This document shows positions 1 to 6,909 of a stretch of 64,000 bases of DNA, one piece after another (the first letter of the stretch is position 1; each line of letters begins with the position of its first letter). This DNA is from Leadbettera azotonutricia ZAS-9. Its GTDB lineage: Bacteria > Spirochaetota > Spirochaetia > Treponematales > Breznakiellaceae. The DNA lies in contig NC_015577.1 in assembly GCF_000214355.1 (NCBI RefSeq), forward strand, positions 3,277,389-3,341,388, in the 5' to 3' direction. The notes below the pieces were generated by a model. That model worked only from the letters and a program-made list of their open reading frames with translations. It had not been told where the DNA came from and did no database searches. The position numbers were made by a program, and so were the translations under genes.

Positions 1-2
1 TC

Positions 3-164
3 TTCATTTTCCGGGACAGCGTGCTCTATATTGCGCCGCCCTTTTTGGCGGCTGGGGTAATCACGGGAATTGTCCTGGGGTTGTTCTGTGAATATTTTAC
101 CCGCAGCTCCCAATGGTACGCCCAGCGCAGGCGCCCTTTGCATAAGCCCGAGGGGGCGTTATGA
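3..164 (+). CDS. C-terminal end of a membrane protein, possibly Gx transporter family (EetB-like)
   Basis: Only the last 53 codons are in the window; the gene starts upstream of position 1. The frame opens with a hydrophobic helix (YIAPPFLAAGVITGIVLG) followed by a short basic tail rich in Arg, which fits the last membrane helix of an inner-membrane protein. The stop codon overlaps the ATG of the next gene (ATGA), so the two are translationally coupled. The suggestion of the Gx transporter family (also annotated as heptaprenyl diphosphate synthase component I, or EetB in electron-transfer loci) rests mainly on the neighbours: an FMN-binding protein, NDH-2 and a polyprenyl synthase. The visible piece alone does not prove the family. 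Confidence 0.45.
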   Translation, partial: FIFRDSVLYIAPPFLAAGVITGIVLGLFCEYFTRSSQWYAQRRRPLHKPEGAL

Positions 165-805
165 AGGCCCTGGAAAAGTTCCGCGCCCGCCGCCGGGAAG
201 TCTACGAAGGGTTGTTCAGCCCCCGATCCCTATGCATTGCCGGGCTCATTATCATGCCCGCGTTGCTCTTTAACCCATATCCCCTGTTCAGGATACTTCA
301 ATTTTTGTTTTTTTGGTTCCTGGCCTGGCTTTCGGGGAAAAAAAACAACCCTCTCATAACCTTCCTGGTAATGCTGTTCATTGTGGCCTTCAACCTTATT
401 GTCCCATACGGGCGGGTTCTGGCGGCTATCGGCCCCTTCAAAATTACCACTGGGGCCCTTATGGCGGGTATTCAAAGGGCCGTAACCCTGGAAGGGCTGA
501 TCATGCTTTCCCGGTTTTCCATCAGGCGGGATCTCCGGATCCCCGGCAAATTCGGGGAGCTTATCGGCGAATCCTTCCGCATTTTCGCAATCATCATGGA
601 CCGGAAAAAGGCGATTACTCGCAAAAACCTTATGGGCGATATTGACAAGCTTTTGATAGAACTAAGCGACGATGTGTCGGAGGATGTTTCCTCCACGGGA
701 ACGGCTTCCCGCAAGCGCACCGGCGTTCCGGGCTTTATTGTCCTCGCGGCGGTGGTGATTCTGTCGTGGTTTCCCTGGGCTTTTATGCTTCTGGCGCGGA
801 GGTAG
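161..805 (+). CDS. Membrane protein with EcfT/CbiQ-like features
   Basis: The 214-residue protein has a basic N-terminus, several hydrophobic helices (about residues 27-45, 47-60, 66-85, 103-120 and a last one at 190-210), and a cytoplasmic stretch with RDLRIPGKFGELIGESFRIF and a run of charged residues. The layout recalls the transmembrane (T) component of ECF transporters, which couples a substrate-binding membrane protein to ATPases, but the usual paired Ala-Arg-Gly coupling motifs are not obvious. It overlaps the previous gene by 4 nt and so belongs to the same operon. In flavin-based electron transfer loci an ECF module for flavin or quinone precursor transport is common, which makes this a reasonable but unproven role. 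Confidence 0.5.
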   Translation: MKALEKFRARRREVYEGLFSPRSLCIAGLIIMPALLFNPYPLFRILQFLFFWFLAWLSGKKNNPLITFLVMLFIVAFNLIVPYGRVLAAIGPFKITTGALMAGIQRAVTLEGLIMLSRFSIRRDLRIPGKFGELIGESFRIFAIIMDRKKAITRKNLMGDIDKLLIELSDDVSEDVSSTGTASRKRTGVPGFIVLAAVVILSWFPWAFMLLARR

Positions 806-1265
806 CCGAGAGATCCTTGAACAGCCCCGCATCCTTGAGCATCTGTCTCATTTCCTGTATCTGCTGATCCAGCTCTTTAATTTGCCGAGCATGGCTCTTA
901 ATCTGCTGGTCATGATTCTTAAGCTGTTGGTCTTGGCTCTTAAGCTGCTGCTTTTGCTTTTCGATTGCTTCTTCCCATTCCTTCGCCTCTTCTATCGCGG
1001 ACCAATAGCTCATCATGTCGGCGTTTGCCTGGGTTTCACGAAGATATGCCAGCTGCGCTTCGTCCATTAGTTCTACCACCTGTTCTGCCATGGCTATGTC
1101 CTCCTCTTGCCGGATTATTGCTTCCAGCAGCTCTTTCCTGGTTATGGTAGCCGCTGATTTGCCTGCTATCCTCTCTATCTTTTTCAATTCTACCGTAATT
1201 ATTTGTGTCCGTCTAAGGGGGCTATGGCACTGCGACCCAAGGTTGGCGATTTCTTCCAGCCGCAA
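783..1265 (-). pseudogene. C-terminal remnant of a PD-(D/E)XK (Rpn-type) transposase
   Basis: This 160-residue frame lacks the N-terminal nuclease domain of Rpn/PDDEXK-type transposases but keeps what looks like their C-terminal helical part (ELLEAIIRQEEDIAMAEQ, then MMSYWSAIEEAKEWEE). It ends in a coiled coil made of degenerate heptads (QQLKSQD, QQLKNHD, QQIKSHA, RQIKELD, QQIQEMR). The first about 20 codons look unrelated. It overlaps the 3' end of the upstream membrane-protein gene on the other strand and faces away from an intact Rpn gene, so it is best read as debris of an earlier insertion. It could still be expressed as a small coiled-coil protein. Confidence 0.5.
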
Positions 1266-1312
1266 TCCCTTGAAAATTCAGCAAAAATATGCTAATTTTA
1301 GAATGAGGTATT

Positions 1313-2221
1313 TTGGTGTCGGCAAACCGTGAGTATAAAGACAGTGTGTTTTCCCTGCTTTTTGGGAATCCCGAAACATTGCGGGAGGTCTACGGCGCCC
1401 TGGAAGGGGTGACCATTGACCCCGAAGAACCCATCACCATCAATACCCTCGAAAATGCCCTTTATATGAAACGGATCAACGATCTCTCGTTTACCATCGG
1501 CGAAAAGCTGGTCGTTTTAATTGAGCACCAGAGCACACTCAACAAAAACATGCCCCTCAGGATATTGATGTACATTGCCCGGATATACGAAAAAATCGTG
1601 GAGAATAAGGACATTTACGCCAAAGGGCTTATCAAAATCCCCCGGCCTGAATTCTTCATCATCTACAATGGGCCGGATACCGATTGGGACACCCGGCAAT
1701 TGAAGCTGTCCGATGCCTTTGAGGATGCTTCCGCCCTGGGGACGGGTTCTTCGATATCGCTTGAACTTTCCGCGACTGCGTACAATATTAATCAGGGTCA
1801 CAACAAGGATATAGTCCGCAAGAGCAAGAAACTTTCCGGATACAGCGTTTTTATTGACAAGGTCCGGGAATACGAAAAGGAATTAGGCAATTTGGAAGAG
1901 GCCATTAAAAAGGCCGTGGAATATTGTGTGGAAAGCGACATCCTTAAAGACTTTTTGGAAGCCCACAGCAAGGAGGTTTTGAACATGCTATTCACTGAAT
2001 GGAACCAGGAAGAGGCTCTGGAATACCGGTACAATGAAGGCCGCGAAGAAGGCCGCGAAGAAGGCCGCGAAGAAGGCCGTGAAGAAGGCCGCAAAGAAGA
2101 TGCCAGAAACATGCTGCGCGACAATATACTCCCTGCTAAGGTCGCCCAATACACCGGATTGCCCCTTAAGGCAATACAAGATTTGGCTCTGACAATGAGT
2201 ACACAAACAGCGGGCAAATGA
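1313..2221 (+). CDS. Rpn family recombination-promoting nuclease / putative transposase
   Basis: A 302-residue PD-(D/E)XK nuclease-family protein. The N-terminus (REYKDSVFSLLFGNPE) and the core with NDLSF, then LVVLIEHQST and MPLRILMYIARIYE, are typical of the family; Asp in NDLSF and Glu/Gln in IEHQS are the likely metal-binding catalytic residues. Rpn proteins are endonucleases that promote RecA-independent recombination. The start is TTG 1313 or, more likely, GTG 1316, which has GAGG about 7 nt upstream. The tail carries five GREE/GRKE repeats encoded by a 12-bp tandem repeat, a feature seen in many members. The gene sits between two parts of what looks like one electron-transfer locus. 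Confidence 0.85.
   Translation: MVSANREYKDSVFSLLFGNPETLREVYGALEGVTIDPEEPITINTLENALYMKRINDLSFTIGEKLVVLIEHQSTLNKNMPLRILMYIARIYEKIVENKDIYAKGLIKIPRPEFFIIYNGPDTDWDTRQLKLSDAFEDASALGTGSSISLELSATAYNINQGHNKDIVRKSKKLSGYSVFIDKVREYEKELGNLEEAIKKAVEYCVESDILKDFLEAHSKEVLNMLFTEWNQEEALEYRYNEGREEGREEGREEGREEGRKEDARNMLRDNILPAKVAQYTGLPLKAIQDLALTMSTQTAGK
2036..2095 (+). repeat. 12-bp tandem repeat encoding (GREE)n in the Rpn gene
   Basis: Five near-identical copies of GAAGGCCGCGAA lie head to tail; the fourth has T for C and the last is altered to GGCCGCAAAGAA. They encode Gly-Arg-Glu-Glu units. Such an in-frame 12-bp repeat can gain or lose units by slippage without shifting the reading frame. Confidence 0.85.
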
Positions 2222-2302
2222 ACGTTCCTACCCAACATTATCCTTTAAAAGTTTCAGCTATATGGCATCGGGAAAACATGGGTCATGCCAACGCGCCGTC
2301 AC

Positions 2303-2331
2303 TTTACATATCTTTGTATCCTTGTTACTAT
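2303..2331 (+). promoter_or_regulatory. Predicted sigma-70 promoter for the FMN-binding/NDH-2 genes
   Basis: TTTACA (2303-2308) and TACTAT (2326-2331) are separated by 17 nt, 54 nt before the ATG at 2385, which has GAGGAG as ribosome-binding site. This would restart transcription downstream of the transposase genes. The rest of the 163-nt gap holds nothing else I recognise. Confidence 0.5.
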
Positions 2332-2384
2332 TTCCCTATTACGAATGTTTTTAATTCAGACTAATTATCATTGAGGAGAAGACT

Positions 2385-3155
2385 ATGAAAAAGCTCGTTT
2401 TAGCTGCGGCGATTGCCGCGCTCTGTGTCGCTGCCCTGGCTGCCCAGACCTACAAGGATGGGTTCTATTTTGCCCAGGATTCGGACTATGCCAGCAACCA
2501 GAAGAACCAGGTGGTTATTGAGGTCAAAGGCGGCAAAATCGCCTCTGCAAACTGGAATATCCTCAGCCTGAATGCGGGTTCACGGGATCTTAAGTCCATT
2601 GCCCAGTCGGGCAGCGTGCCTGCGGCCGCAACCTGGGCTACCCAGGCCGGCGTGGTCGAGGCTTTTCTGGTGTCGAGCCAAAATGTCAACGCCGCATCTG
2701 TGCCGGGGGGGCCAAGCAATGTAAAGCCCTTCTTTGACCTGGCAAAAAAGGCGTTGAAGGACAAGGCTATTGCAAAGGGGTCCTATGCCAAAGACGGCTG
2801 GTATTACAATGAATCCTCCGAGGTCGATGGGTACCATACCAAGAATACTGCCCTTATCACGGTGGTAAACGGCACTATCGTGGACGCCCTCTGGAACGGG
2901 ATACTGCAGGGTATGCCTGCAAGCGTTAATCCCTCAAAAATGATCACCTCCAGAGCCAAGGGATACCCCATGACCGGGGCAAAAAAGACCTGGGATCAGC
3001 AGGCGGTGAGTACCACCAATGCCCTGGTCAAAGCCCAAAGCCCTGATAATTTGAAGTTGAAAGCCGACGGGGCTGCCGACGGGATTTCCGGGGTATCCAT
3101 TCATATCAAAGAATATGTTGACGTTGCAAAAGCAGCCCTGCAGGGCGCCCGGTAA
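2385..3155 (+). CDS. Exported FMN-binding domain protein (PplA-like)
   Basis: The 256-residue protein has a Sec signal peptide (cleavage near AALAA-Q, residues 19-21) and two tandem FMN-binding-type domains, each starting with a DGxYY/F motif (YKDGFYF near residue 23 and YAKDGWYY near 134). The second domain ends in DGISGVS (about residues 233-239), which fits the site where ApbE-type transferases attach FMN to Ser/Thr; the first domain has lost this motif (AASVPGGPS). A clear lipobox is absent: the only signal-peptide Cys follows Leu. It is followed at 18 nt by NDH-2, to which it could serve as an extracytoplasmic electron acceptor, as PplA does in Listeria. No apbE gene is in the window. 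Confidence 0.8.
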   Translation: MKKLVLAAAIAALCVAALAAQTYKDGFYFAQDSDYASNQKNQVVIEVKGGKIASANWNILSLNAGSRDLKSIAQSGSVPAAATWATQAGVVEAFLVSSQNVNAASVPGGPSNVKPFFDLAKKALKDKAIAKGSYAKDGWYYNESSEVDGYHTKNTALITVVNGTIVDALWNGILQGMPASVNPSKMITSRAKGYPMTGAKKTWDQQAVSTTNALVKAQSPDNLKLKADGAADGISGVSIHIKEYVDVAKAALQGAR

Positions 3156-3173
3156 AGCAAAAAGGAGTTTTCA

Positions 3174-5132
3174 ATGGGAAACGGGAAAAATATCCTCATT
3201 GTCGGCGGGGGATATGGCGGCATATCTGCCGCGAAAAAGCTGGAGAAAAAGTACAAGCACAATGATGATGTAACCATCACCTTGGTGGATAAGCGGCCTT
3301 TCCATACCCTGATGACGGAACTCCACGAGGTTGCCGGGCACAGGGTAGAGCCGGATTCGGTGCGGGTTCCCTATGCCAAGGTCTTCGGGGCGTCAAAGGT
3401 CAAGGTATCGCTGGATACTATCGATTCCATTGATTTTGGCAAAAACCAGGCCCGTTCCGCTACGAAGGTCTACGACTACGATTATTTGGTCCTGGGCAGC
3501 GGGGCGGAACCGAATTTCTTCGGCATTCCGGGAATTAAAGAAAATTCCTTTACCCTCTGGTCTTTTGACGATGCAATGAAGCTCCGGTATCACATTGATG
3601 ATGTTTTTGAAAAGGCTGTCGCCGAACAGGATCGGGCCAAACGGCAGAAAATGCTCACCTTTGTGGTGGCCGGCGCGGGCTTTACAGGTATCGAAATGGC
3701 CGGGGAACTCATCGAATGGCGCGATACCATGTGCGCCAAGTGGCTGGTTCCCGTTTCCGAAGTGCGGATCATTGTGGTGGAAGCCCTGAACTCCATCCTG
3801 CCTATTCTGGAGGAAGACCTCCGGGACAAGGTCGAGCATTACATGAAAAAGCACGGGGCAGAGCTTTTGACCGGTACCGCGATTGTAGGCGGCGAACCGG
3901 GGCTGGTAAAGCTCAAGGACGGTTCCGCCCTGGCGACCAGCACTTTTATCTGGACCGCTGGTGTGGATGGCAATACCTGGGCCGATGGCCTGGGCCTTTC
4001 CAATGGCCCCTTCGGCAAGGATGCCCCGGAAGGCAAGCGGAACCGCAGGGGCCGCCTCCTCATCACCGATGAGATCCGTTCCGTGGATCACCCCAATGTC
4101 TTCCCTGTAGGGGACAACATTTGGTTCATCGAAAATGAAAAGCCCCTCCCCCAAATCGTGGAAACTGCAGTGCAGACCGGAGAAACCGCGGCCCACAATA
4201 TCATTGCCGCTATCGACGGGTCTGCGCCGAAGAAGTTCAAATCCAACTTCCATGGCTTTATGGTTTCTGTTGGAGGCAAATACGCCGTGTCCAACGCCAT
4301 GGGGATCAAGCTTTCGGGTCTGTTTGCCATGGCTATGAAGCACATCGTCAACCTCCACTACTTGATCGGGGTGGCGGGCTTTAACCAGTGCTGGGAATAC
4401 CTGAAGCACGAATTCCTCAACAACGACAGCGGCAGGACCATTGTCCACGGCTTCGGTTCCTACAAAACCAGGGGCTACTGGCTTCTGCCTATCCGGCTAT
4501 GGCTGGGGCTTATGTGGGTCTTTGAAGGGATCAACAAGATTGGCGAAGGCTGGCTAAACTGGGCCCAGGGTTCCAAATCGGGCTGGATGTTCTCCTCGGG
4601 GATAGTGCAGTCCGGCGTGCCCCCGGCTGCGGATGATCTCTTTGGGGCTGCCGAGGATCTCTTCGGGTCGGTTGCCGTGGAAGCAGCCGATGCGGTGAGT
4701 TCCGCCACGGTTACGGTGAACACCACCTTTGAAGGTGTCTGGGATTTTTCCAGGACGATTTTTGCTACCGATGGCGCGGTGGCAACCTGGTTCAGAACGA
4801 CTTTCATGGATAATCTTCTTGCCTATGTCCCCTTCCAGGGCTTCCAGTTAATGGTAGTTTTGGTGGAGATTTTGATTGGGCTGGCCTTGGTAGGCGGTTT
4901 GTTCACCTGGTGGGCTGCTGCAGTTTCCTGTGTCATGTGCGTGATATTCTCCCTTTCGGGCTTGTTTTACTGGTATCAGCTATGGTTCTTATTTGCAGGG
5001 ATCTTGTTCCTCGGCGGCGGCGGCAGGGCCTTCGGCCTGGATTGCTGGGTGGTTCCCTTCTTTAAGAAATGGTGGAATGGAACCAAGATTGCCCGCAGGC
5101 TCTATTGGTATCAAGATGGGCCTTCAAAATAG
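3174..5132 (+). CDS. ndh: Type II NADH dehydrogenase with C-terminal membrane domain
   Basis: NDH-2 passes electrons from NADH to quinone without pumping ions. The first about 420 of 652 residues hold two dinucleotide-binding motifs (VGGGYGG at 10-16 for FAD, AGAGFTG near 165 for NADH) and the FAD motif VFPVGDN near 310. From about 435 on the protein has extra membrane helices (RLWLGLMWVFEGINK, then three helices between about 560 and 635) with a DoxX-like look and a loop between them. Ordinary NDH-2 has about 400-450 residues; the extended membrane form is the one found in flavin-based extracellular electron transfer loci. AAGGAG lies 9 nt before the ATG, and the FMN-binding gene is just upstream. 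Confidence 0.88.
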   Translation: MGNGKNILIVGGGYGGISAAKKLEKKYKHNDDVTITLVDKRPFHTLMTELHEVAGHRVEPDSVRVPYAKVFGASKVKVSLDTIDSIDFGKNQARSATKVYDYDYLVLGSGAEPNFFGIPGIKENSFTLWSFDDAMKLRYHIDDVFEKAVAEQDRAKRQKMLTFVVAGAGFTGIEMAGELIEWRDTMCAKWLVPVSEVRIIVVEALNSILPILEEDLRDKVEHYMKKHGAELLTGTAIVGGEPGLVKLKDGSALATSTFIWTAGVDGNTWADGLGLSNGPFGKDAPEGKRNRRGRLLITDEIRSVDHPNVFPVGDNIWFIENEKPLPQIVETAVQTGETAAHNIIAAIDGSAPKKFKSNFHGFMVSVGGKYAVSNAMGIKLSGLFAMAMKHIVNLHYLIGVAGFNQCWEYLKHEFLNNDSGRTIVHGFGSYKTRGYWLLPIRLWLGLMWVFEGINKIGEGWLNWAQGSKSGWMFSSGIVQSGVPPAADDLFGAAEDLFGSVAVEAADAVSSATVTVNTTFEGVWDFSRTIFATDGAVATWFRTTFMDNLLAYVPFQGFQLMVVLVEILIGLALVGGLFTWWAAAVSCVMCVIFSLSGLFYWYQLWFLFAGILFLGGGGRAFGLDCWVVPFFKKWWNGTKIARRLYWYQDGPSK

Positions 5133-5147
5133 GCCTTTGTAAAATCG

Positions 5148-6113
5148 ATGTCTTCGTATTGGAGTGATTTCCCCGGAATACCGGAAGCTTTGGAAAAAGT
5201 TTCCGGTATTATACGGAGTTCGTCCGAATCGCAAAATCCAATAATTTCTGAGGGACTTAGTTCGCTTTTTAACGGAAAGGGCAAACTGCTCCGGCCGGGT
5301 TTATTCATGCTGGCAGCCCAATTCGGGAAGCCCCAGGAAAAACACTATAAACTGGCAGCTTCCCTCGAAATGCTCCACATGGCAACCCTCATCCACGATG
5401 ACGTGATTGACGATTCCCCTATGCGTCGGGGGGTTCCTGCGGTGCATACCCGGTACGGAAAACGGGACGCTGTCCTTATAGGGGACTACCTTCTTTCCCG
5501 CTGTTTTATCCTTACTGCGGAATACACGTCCCCGCAGAATGCCGTCAATTTGGCCAAACTCATTTCGACTATATGCTTGATGGAAATTGAGCAGAACAAT
5601 GACAGGTTCAGGAGCAATACCTCCCTGCGGACTTATATGCGGAAAATCCTGGGAAAGTCGGCGCTGCTTTTTTCTCTTGCCTGTTATGCAGGGGCCTTCG
5701 AGGCAAAGGCTTCCAGGGATACTTGCGAACGCCTCAGGCGGATTGGGTATAACATCGGCATAGCCTTCCAGATTATCGACGATATACTGGATTATGCCGG
5801 GAAGCAGGATCTGGTACGGAAACCCCTGGGGAACGATATCAGCTCCGGGCTTATAACTCTGCCGGTGCTCTGCGCCCTGCCCCTTGACAATACCGGAACG
5901 TTGCAGGAAATTTTTTCCCGGGCTTCCTTTACTCCTGAGGAAGGGGCGGTTATTTTTAATCTGGTCAACAATTCCGGCGGGGTGGAAGCGGCCGGCAAAT
6001 ATGCCGAAAAATACACCAACAGGGCTCTCCGGGAAATCAGCGCACTCCCTCCAGGAAAAAACCGGGATATGCTGGACACCCTGACCCGGCGGCTATTGAT
6101 CCGGGACAAGTAA
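5148..6113 (+). CDS. Polyprenyl (heptaprenyl-type) diphosphate synthase
   Basis: This trans-isoprenyl diphosphate synthase extends an allylic diphosphate with isopentenyl diphosphate to make the side chain of a quinone or of undecaprenyl-like lipids. The 321-residue protein has both Asp-rich motifs: LIHDDVIDD with MRRG (about residues 80-95) and FQIIDDILDY (about 207-216). It starts 15 nt after the ndh stop and is in the same operon. In electron-transfer loci the enzyme in this place (DmkB) makes the tail of a demethylmenaquinone. The chain length cannot be read with certainty from the sequence. No strong ribosome-binding site precedes the ATG. Confidence 0.85.
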   Translation: MSSYWSDFPGIPEALEKVSGIIRSSSESQNPIISEGLSSLFNGKGKLLRPGLFMLAAQFGKPQEKHYKLAASLEMLHMATLIHDDVIDDSPMRRGVPAVHTRYGKRDAVLIGDYLLSRCFILTAEYTSPQNAVNLAKLISTICLMEIEQNNDRFRSNTSLRTYMRKILGKSALLFSLACYAGAFEAKASRDTCERLRRIGYNIGIAFQIIDDILDYAGKQDLVRKPLGNDISSGLITLPVLCALPLDNTGTLQEIFSRASFTPEEGAVIFNLVNNSGGVEAAGKYAEKYTNRALREISALPPGKNRDMLDTLTRRLLIRDK

Positions 6114-6120
6114 GGTTCCT

Positions 6121-6909
6121 ATGCGGATAATCGAATGGTCCCGATTTTTAACGGAAGGTCTTCCGGGTACAAAGAATTTCACCGCCATGACTATCGGGGT
6201 CTTTGATGGTATACACCGGGGGCATAAAGCCCTTATTGACCGCGTAGTCTCCCACGTCAGCTCTGCGTCCCCTGTGGTTGTCACCTTCAGGCAGAATCAT
6301 AAAAAAAACTTGCAACAGCAGCACACCCCGCTTAATCACCGGGGGGATATATTCAGTTTCCGGCAAAAAATGGACAGCCTCGAAAATCTGGGCATAGCCC
6401 TGGCCATTGTGATTGATTTTTCAGAATCCATAAGGCACATGCCGGGGCTGGAATTTATCCGGATCCTGCAGGAGCATGGAAAGATGGGCTACCTGGCGGT
6501 GGGCAGCAACTTCCGCTGCGGCTATCATTTGGACACCGATGCGCCGATGATTCAAAAAATAAACGAAAAGCTGGGTATCCCCACGGATGTTGTAGAGGTC
6601 CTTTCGGAAGATTCCCTGCCCATAAGCTCAAGCCGCATACGCAGCGCCATCGCCCAGGGGAATCTGCAGGAAGCTGCAGCCATGCTTGGCCATCCCTATG
6701 TTATTGACATTAGTGATGCCGGCGATTCATCCGCCCAGGGCGTTTACGATCTTGCCGCCCAGGGCCGAATTCTGCCGCCCCCCGGAAAGTACCCGGTCCG
6801 CCTCTATGAAGGCATCCGGGGAGCAGGAACACCAACCGAAATACAAGTTGAACAGGGGGTTATCCGTATCCCCGGGTCCCAATGGGAATATGTTGAGTTC
6901 TTGATCTAG
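6121..6909 (+). CDS. ribF: FAD synthetase, RibF-like, apparently without the riboflavin kinase domain
   Basis: The N-terminal about 185 residues match the FMN adenylyltransferase half of RibF: GVFDGIHRGH (27-36) binds ATP phosphates and SSSRIRSAI (near 170) is the C-terminal signature. The following about 75 residues do not show the kinase motifs of bifunctional RibF (no Gly-rich loop with the PTAN signature), only a short stretch with LPPPGKYPVRLYEG that recalls its beta-barrel. It may therefore make FAD but not FMN. The gene is 8 nt downstream of the prenyl synthase. Placement with an FMN-binding protein and a flavoenzyme suggests it supplies FAD for protein flavinylation. Its length (262) is below the usual about 310. 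Confidence 0.8.
   Translation: MRIIEWSRFLTEGLPGTKNFTAMTIGVFDGIHRGHKALIDRVVSHVSSASPVVVTFRQNHKKNLQQQHTPLNHRGDIFSFRQKMDSLENLGIALAIVIDFSESIRHMPGLEFIRILQEHGKMGYLAVGSNFRCGYHLDTDAPMIQKINEKLGIPTDVVEVLSEDSLPISSSRIRSAIAQGNLQEAAAMLGHPYVIDISDAGDSSAQGVYDLAAQGRILPPPGKYPVRLYEGIRGAGTPTEIQVEQGVIRIPGSQWEYVEFLI

Follow-up and report, generated by a model that had tools for sequence, protein, structure and literature searches.

A candidate flavin-based electron transfer locus with a putative quinone-precursor salvage cassette in the spirochete Leadbettera azotonutricia ZAS-9

Introduction

Flavin-based extracellular electron transfer (FLEET) in Listeria is encoded by fmnA, dmkA, fmnB, pplA, ndh2, eetA, eetB and dmkB. 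We compared with this locus a gene cluster of the spirochete Leadbettera azotonutricia ZAS-9, whose downstream half occupies the first 7 kb of a 64,000-nucleotide window (C1:3277389-3341388 of a genome that forms one contig of 3,855,671 bases) and whose start lies about 15-16 kb upstream. The upstream DNA was read as stretch L009, in which subtracting 20000 from a position gives the window position. The cluster very probably encodes a FLEET-type chain in a diderm host, and this termite-gut-type spirochete apparently carries a complete gene set for electron transfer from NADH to an external flavoprotein.

Other described systems share parts with the cluster. The exporter of flavin adenine dinucleotide (FAD) consists of EetB and a following membrane protein, FmnA, and its genes cluster with eetA and apbE (PMC9973259). 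The flavinylated extracellular reductases of Gram-positive bacteria combine FMN_bind and FAD_binding_2 domains with a lipoprotein signal and an ApbE-type motif. Regarding the futalosine menaquinone pathway, mqnP, mqnL and mqnM were found in gut genomes only alongside the complete pathway, and importers of quinone precursors were expected to exist, with none annotated (Ravcheev and Thiele 2016, PMC4746308); for Lactiplantibacillus, too, it was left open how such precursors are taken up (PMC10746273). The open-access literature, with subscription papers outside the search, yielded no report of FLEET in spirochetes, of an ATP-binding cassette (ABC) importer for naphthoate precursors or of Ndh2 flavinylation.

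Comparison of the core proteins with Listeria

To compare the core proteins directly, we used the FLEET locus of Listeria monocytogenes, taken from a record filed as a plasmid. Ndh2 was 39% identical to its Listeria counterpart across residues 5-645, membrane tail included, and identities were 41% for ApbE (FmnB), 39% for DmkB, 30% for EetB (E 3e-21) and 29% for EetA. The PplA-like protein matched Listeria PplA with 98% probability in an hhalign profile comparison, and the hidden Markov model (HMM) of its family matched both domains of Listeria PplA; against the curated PplA model it scored 25 bits, with a cut-off of 325. AlphaFold predicted two domains with a predicted local distance difference test (pLDDT) score of 88, and the model (VIA) aligned with two Clostridium proteins, CPE2226 (Z 12.8) and A3DHT5 (Z 12.3), and with domain 2 of flavinylated SaFMN3, an FMN-binding domain (Z 8.5). 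Pfam gave no match for the host's PplA-like protein or for the FmnA-like protein.

A preliminary description, made from the letters of the window alone, had listed a membrane protein, an FMN-domain protein, an NDH-2, a polyprenyl synthase and a FAD synthetase, and had likened their content to the Listeria locus. All of these genes were present as open frames, and the likeness was borne out by the homology of Ndh2, FmnB/ApbE, EetA, EetB, DmkB and PplA. The gene cut by the start of the window, suspected to be Gx-like, proved on profile search to encode a 200-aa EetB (Table 1). The genes do lie in the same stretch, as had been said, with the run broken by an Rpn-type gene and a minus-strand open reading frame (ORF). 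A signal peptide without a lipobox was seen in the PplA-like protein, so that its predicted periplasmic location also holds on sequence.

Its suggestion of an EcfT-like membrane protein fared less well. This FmnA-like protein matched Listeria FmnA marginally (hhalign probability 48%, E 1.8e-4); in many loci it comes directly after EetB, and in several the two are fused. Its AlphaFold model was too poor for a fold search (pLDDT 50), and no real match came from searching the PDB with the FmnA profile. The weak match of the FmnA family HMM to Listeria FmnA was set aside because the HMM had taken in EetB-FmnA fusions and also matches EetB. Such fusions, in one frame, were seen in L022, L026, L031, L035, L036 and L038, from another family of the order and including the 1.1-Mb genome G013. 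Compared with the described FAD exporter, with which the locus shares EetB followed by a membrane protein, eetA and a cluster with apbE, the T-like partner is highly divergent. In the RibF-type FAD synthetase, a Pfam search found no flavokinase domain. The RibF-type gene adjoins FAD-consuming flavinylation genes and was also seen downstream of DmkB in L165.

The locus thus shares with Listeria a full-length Ndh2 with tail, ApbE/FmnB, EetA, EetB, DmkB and a two-domain PplA-like protein. It differs in its diderm host, in a PplA-like protein that is not a lipoprotein, in an FmnA of weak similarity, in an added flavin reductase and FMN lipoproteins, and in its span of about 23 kb with insertions. 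In place of DmkA (MenA) it has MqnP, MqnL and MqnM with an ABC importer; the genome's single PF01040 protein is MqnP-like and accompanied by UbiD and UbiX. Because a DmkA/MenA-type prenyltransferase is absent, we regard the locus as a FLEET variant rather than a plain member. The preliminary description had placed the missing parts upstream. There we found eetA, eetB, the genome's only apbE and, beside apbE, quinone genes; the quinone ring enzyme, however, is not DmkA/MenA but the MqnP-MqnL-MqnM set with the importer.

Distribution across genomes

The survey covered 294 genomes of the order Treponematales, and since many assemblies are incomplete, absences are soft. Relatives identified by sequence included Breznakiella, Gracilinema and Rectinema as well as numerous Treponema assemblies, and one relative carried an Ndh2 82% identical to that of the host. 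EetB was present in 259 genomes, usually with EetA and the FmnA-like protein in the loci read, so that this trio would be general flavin-export equipment in the order. Because it is near-universal, EetB was rejected as a FLEET marker, and EetA, EetB and FmnA alone do not indicate FLEET; the indicators are Ndh2-DmkB and the quinone cassette. Ndh2 of this type occurred in 72 genomes (69 strong matches). In the operon comparison proposed in the preliminary description, DmkB directly followed Ndh2 in 20 of 20 related loci read, more than expected by chance.

The difference between 259 genomes with EetB and 72 with Ndh2 would also fit a view in which Ndh2-DmkB forms a module of its own that lies nearby by chance, and the flavinylated proteins served by EetA, EetB, the FmnA-like protein and ApbE are others, such as Rnf. 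However, a single ApbE would serve all of these proteins, and the Ndh2, quinone, ApbE and Eet genes are contiguous in several spirochetes and Clostridia. We consider this explanation quite unlikely, and it is in part compatible with a FLEET-type chain.

The contiguous arrangements were as follows. Spirochaetia MS502-93 (L159; also L102) had the order ApbE-UbiD-UbiA-UbiX-binding protein-ATPase-permease, a short gap and Ndh2-DmkB, with FmnA-EetB on the other strand, and L185 had Ndh2-DmkB-ApbE-UbiD-UbiA. Clostridium sp. UBA701 (L224) had permease-ATPase-binding protein-UbiX-UbiA-UbiD-ApbE-PplA with divergent Ndh2-EetA-EetB-DmkB, and similar arrangements were seen in Anaerovorax (L217), Vallitalea (L229) and a Sphaerochaeta (L219).

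Quinone cassette and ABC importer

The cassette shares with the late steps of the futalosine pathway an MqnP-like UbiA, a UbiX (MqnM) and an MqnL of the UbiD-type SCO4490 family, which scored 597.8 bits against TIGR03701 (cut-off 495.9). It differs from that pathway in that the host is without MqnA and MqnD: their model, PF02621, gave no match in the host genome while positive controls matched. Six other genomes that carry the locus, namely MS502-93, Breznakiella and four in which the cassette adjoins Ndh2, gave nothing above the MqnA/MqnD cut-off. PF02621 matches in 23 of the 294 genomes were not counted as MqnA/MqnD, being weak (at most 57 bits) and most likely NMT1-type binding proteins. 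In contrast to the gut genomes of PMC4746308, late mqn genes thus occur here without MqnA/MqnD and with an importer. Since Enterococcus raffinosus carries menA genes at the place corresponding to the cassette, the MqnP-MqnL-MqnM and importer cassette looks like an alternative to DmkA.

MqnL was found in 51 genomes, one weak match having been set aside, and occurred together with Ndh2 in 48 (12.0 expected, p 1e-34). Close relatives of the importer's binding protein were likewise found in 51 genomes, 48 of them with MqnL (8.8 expected, p 1e-47), and this co-occurrence was kept even where the genes lay on different contigs. The p-values treat genomes as independent and are not corrected for shared ancestry; the effect size and the recurrence in Clostridia are the stronger argument for linkage.

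The nearest characterised models of the importer are SsuA/TauB/THI5-like, which would suit the uptake of a sulfonate, a thiamine precursor or a non-quinone aromatic acid, linked to the cassette by accident or co-regulation. The co-occurrence with MqnL, 48 of 51 in both directions and kept at a distance, speaks against such a substrate, as do the importer genes adjoining MqnL in 13 of 22 MqnL loci and the same linkage in Clostridia; we judge this alternative to be a serious if minority possibility. Alternatively, the cell might make its own naphthoate with unknown enzymes in place of MqnA/MqnD, and no salvage would take place. A missing known gene leaves room for such a route, the more so as MqnB, MqnC, MqnE and the Men genes were outside the search, but the cassette has a dedicated importer, and MqnA/MqnD were below cut-off in the host and in all six further genomes. 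Internal synthesis therefore appears very unlikely. Salvage of a quinone precursor by the cassette is, on balance, probable, and it is the most economical reading of the quinone module.

Flavinylation motifs and terminal reductase

The motif recognised by ApbE has been given as DxxS/TGAS/T; changes of A to V and of G to A leave about half of the efficiency, serine is a weaker acceptor than threonine, and the aspartate has a minor effect (review, PMC12052999). We found the motif D-x-x-[S/T]-G-A-[S/T] in exact form in one lipoprotein (DTISGAT) and as the variants DIVGGAT, DAVSSAT (Ndh2) and DGISGVS. The last of these lies at the C-terminus of the PplA-like protein, whose relatives keep D-x-[IVL]-[STA]-G-[VAC]-[ST], and covalent flavinylation of this protein is plausible. 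Elsewhere in the genome, likely ApbE targets are an 800-residue frame with two FMN_bind domains (G000:C1:2129544-2130059) and FMN_bind frames at 3577592 and 3371291.

The cluster's reductase agrees with the Gram-positive flavinylated reductases in domain make-up, lipoprotein signal and ApbE-type motif. In the related genomes L096/L143, L144, L155 and L156, PplA or Ndh2 again has this reductase or the small FMN lipoproteins as neighbours, with weaker reductase matches in L147 and L142, and for this reason we favour a small molecule rather than iron as acceptor. An organic end acceptor located in the cell envelope is, in our estimate, about an even call. On reading the sequence by eye, the residues typical of fumarate reductases were not evident in this protein. 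A vinyl-phenol-reductase model was among many sub-threshold matches; lignin-derived phenylpropenoids of the termite gut are a guess only as acceptor.

The core genes shared with Listeria would also suit true extracellular transfer, in which ferric iron or other solids beyond the outer membrane take up the electrons. Against this, the PplA-like protein carries a signal peptide without a lipobox, no outer-membrane electron conduit was recognised nearby (a porin-like gene there is a weak match), and a reductase with its own FMN domain belongs to the cluster and, in related genomes, is found close to Ndh2 or PplA. Transfer across the outer membrane thus seems unlikely.

A predicted extracytosolic loop of Ndh2

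Membrane segments one and two of Ndh2 are joined by a loop (about residues 462-546) that contains one copy of DAVSSAT (residues 506-512). Because the NDH-2 domain is cytosolic, the segments number four and the C-terminus is basic, the loop is taken to be extracytosolic. The pattern [DE]xx[ST][GAS]A[ST] occurred 109 times in 60 distinct Spirochaetota loops (shuffled mean 2.2, maximum 7 of 500) and 10 times in 18 Clostridia loops (shuffled mean 0.14, maximum 2); the roughly 44,600 residues outside the loop held a single match. This enrichment, which was unexpected, includes loops of L156-L235. Control patterns (reversed, K/R-first, V/I-last) showed little or no enrichment in the loops, and an N/Q-first control showed a mild excess in spirochete loops (5 vs 0.9). 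SGAS and TGAS were present in the Ndh2 loops of Listeria and Enterococcus raffinosus, and some spirochete loops carried arrays such as DAASGAT...DAASGAT. The loops are of low complexity and often repetitive, so that shared repeat ancestry can inflate the motif count; we nevertheless take the enrichment seriously because in Clostridia the loops are mostly short, with less repetition. We put forward, as a speculative and rather unlikely reading, that FLEET-type Ndh2 proteins are ApbE substrates whose loop may carry one to several covalent FMN groups bridging the membrane quinone to PplA. If the motif is a flavinylation site, it would supply the FLEET step between these two components.

Proposed electron transfer chain

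In the chain that we propose, cytosolic NADH would reduce the NDH-2 domain of Ndh2, assigned by homology, and the membrane tail would hand the electrons to a demethylmenaquinone-like quinone. From the quinone they would reach the PplA-like protein, which would be periplasmic and carry covalent flavin, and the small FMN lipoproteins, and in the last step a flavoprotein reductase of the cell envelope would reduce a small unsaturated organic acceptor rather than iron outside the cell. FAD would be made by RibF and exported by EetB with its FmnA-like partner, and ApbE would attach the FMN. The quinone would not be made de novo: the NitT/TauT-like ABC importer would take up a naphthoate as precursor of the head group, and 1,4-dihydroxy-6-naphthoate or something closely similar is its most likely identity. 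The precursor would be prenylated by MqnP, which would draw on the DmkB product, and then decarboxylated to demethylmenaquinone for Ndh2 by MqnL, which would use the UbiX cofactor. As a whole, a FLEET-type chain that ends in periplasmic flavoproteins, probably with a reductase of the organic-acid type rather than iron, and that is fed by quinone-precursor salvage is the best explanation of the locus, and we hold it with reasonable, though limited, confidence.

Several points weigh against this explanation. The DGISGVS motif of the PplA-like protein has V for A and a serine acceptor, both reported to lower flavinylation (PMC12052999). The substrate of the importer is deduced from genomic association only, and no ECF (energy-coupling factor) ATPase was recognised within the cluster. 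MqnL was absent from 21 of the 69 Ndh2-positive genomes, and three MqnL-positive genomes were without Ndh2, which makes the two modules separable. The locus is also broken by an insertion sequence (IS), between the reductase and DUF362 genes, and by the Rpn-type gene, and it holds an fmnA remnant. These breaks could mean that the locus is decaying and no longer works in this strain, but all core genes are intact open frames and the close similarity of Ndh2 to that of a relative is retained, so that decay is highly improbable.

If the proposed chain is correct, fermentative spirochetes of guts and sediments would have a hidden respiratory chain, and FLEET would extend beyond Gram-positives. The cassette would offer a concrete candidate for the quinone-precursor importer predicted earlier but never named (PMC4746308), and quinone cross-feeding in anaerobic gut communities would become testable at the level of one cassette.

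Gene arrangement

The features are listed in Table 1. Overlaps or very short gaps separate the genes from ApbE through the permease, and likewise those of PplA-Ndh2-DmkB-RibF; this tight spacing suggests two operons. ApbE and UbiA were each the sole member of their family in a genome-wide search, and both lie in this cluster.

Table 1. Features of the cluster and its surroundings, with positions in stretch L009 or in the window
Feature	Position	Strand	Basis or remark
ApbE lipoprotein	L009 4267-5292	+	family assignment by sequence
UbiD/MqnL	L009 5310-6764	+	menaquinone-type model TIGR03701
UbiA/MqnP	L009 6754-7617	+	PF01040
UbiX/MqnM	L009 7630-8199	+	family assignment by sequence
NitT/TauT-type ABC binding protein	L009 8187-9140 (C1:3265575-3266528)	+	
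ABC ATPase of NitT/TauT-like importer	L009 9134-9889	+	
ABC permease of NitT/TauT-like importer	L009 9847-10641	+	
Porin-like gene	between ABC permease and FMN lipoproteins		weak match only
Small FMN_bind lipoprotein	L009 12247-12618	-	
Small FMN_bind lipoprotein, second	L009 12689-13123	-	
fmnA-like gene remnant, degenerate	L009:13186-13423	-	48% protein identity over 50 residues
Lipoprotein flavoprotein reductase, FMN_bind and FAD_binding_2 domains	L009 13478-15268	-	
IS transposase	between reductase and DUF362 lipoprotein genes		
DUF362 lipoprotein	L009 16936-18198	+	
ArsP_1 permease	L009 18217-19140	+	
EetA (NusG_II)	L009 19216-19599	+	
EetB end (Gx transporter, predicted FAD-export ECF S subunit)	window 1..164	+	PF07456 E 2.9e-36; gene starts 438 bases before window
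Candidate FmnA (ECF T-like membrane subunit)	window 161..805	+	place after EetB; hhalign to Listeria FmnA
Small ORF	window 783-1265	-	between membrane protein and FMN-domain protein
PDDEXK_2/Rpn-type gene, outside the electron chain	window 1313..2221	+	PF04754, PF12784
PplA-like exported protein, two FMN-binding-type domains	window 2385..3155	+	AlphaFold, hhalign
Ndh2, type II NADH dehydrogenase with membrane tail	window 3174..5132	+	Pyr_redox_2 and DoxX-like tail; Listeria Ndh2 homology
DmkB-type polyprenyl diphosphate synthase	window 5148..6113	+	PF00348 polyprenyl_synt, E 1e-59
RibF-type FAD synthetase	window 6121..6909	+	PF06574 FAD_syn, E 4e-29

The fmnA remnant adjoins the FMN lipoprotein and reductase genes, which suggests an earlier second copy of fmnA. 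The genes for the DUF362 lipoprotein and the ArsP_1 permease (L009:16936-19140) sit between the IS and eetA. The Rpn-type gene, part of an insertion at window positions 783-2221, contains glutamate-rich repeats, and similar DNA was found at several other sites of the genome.

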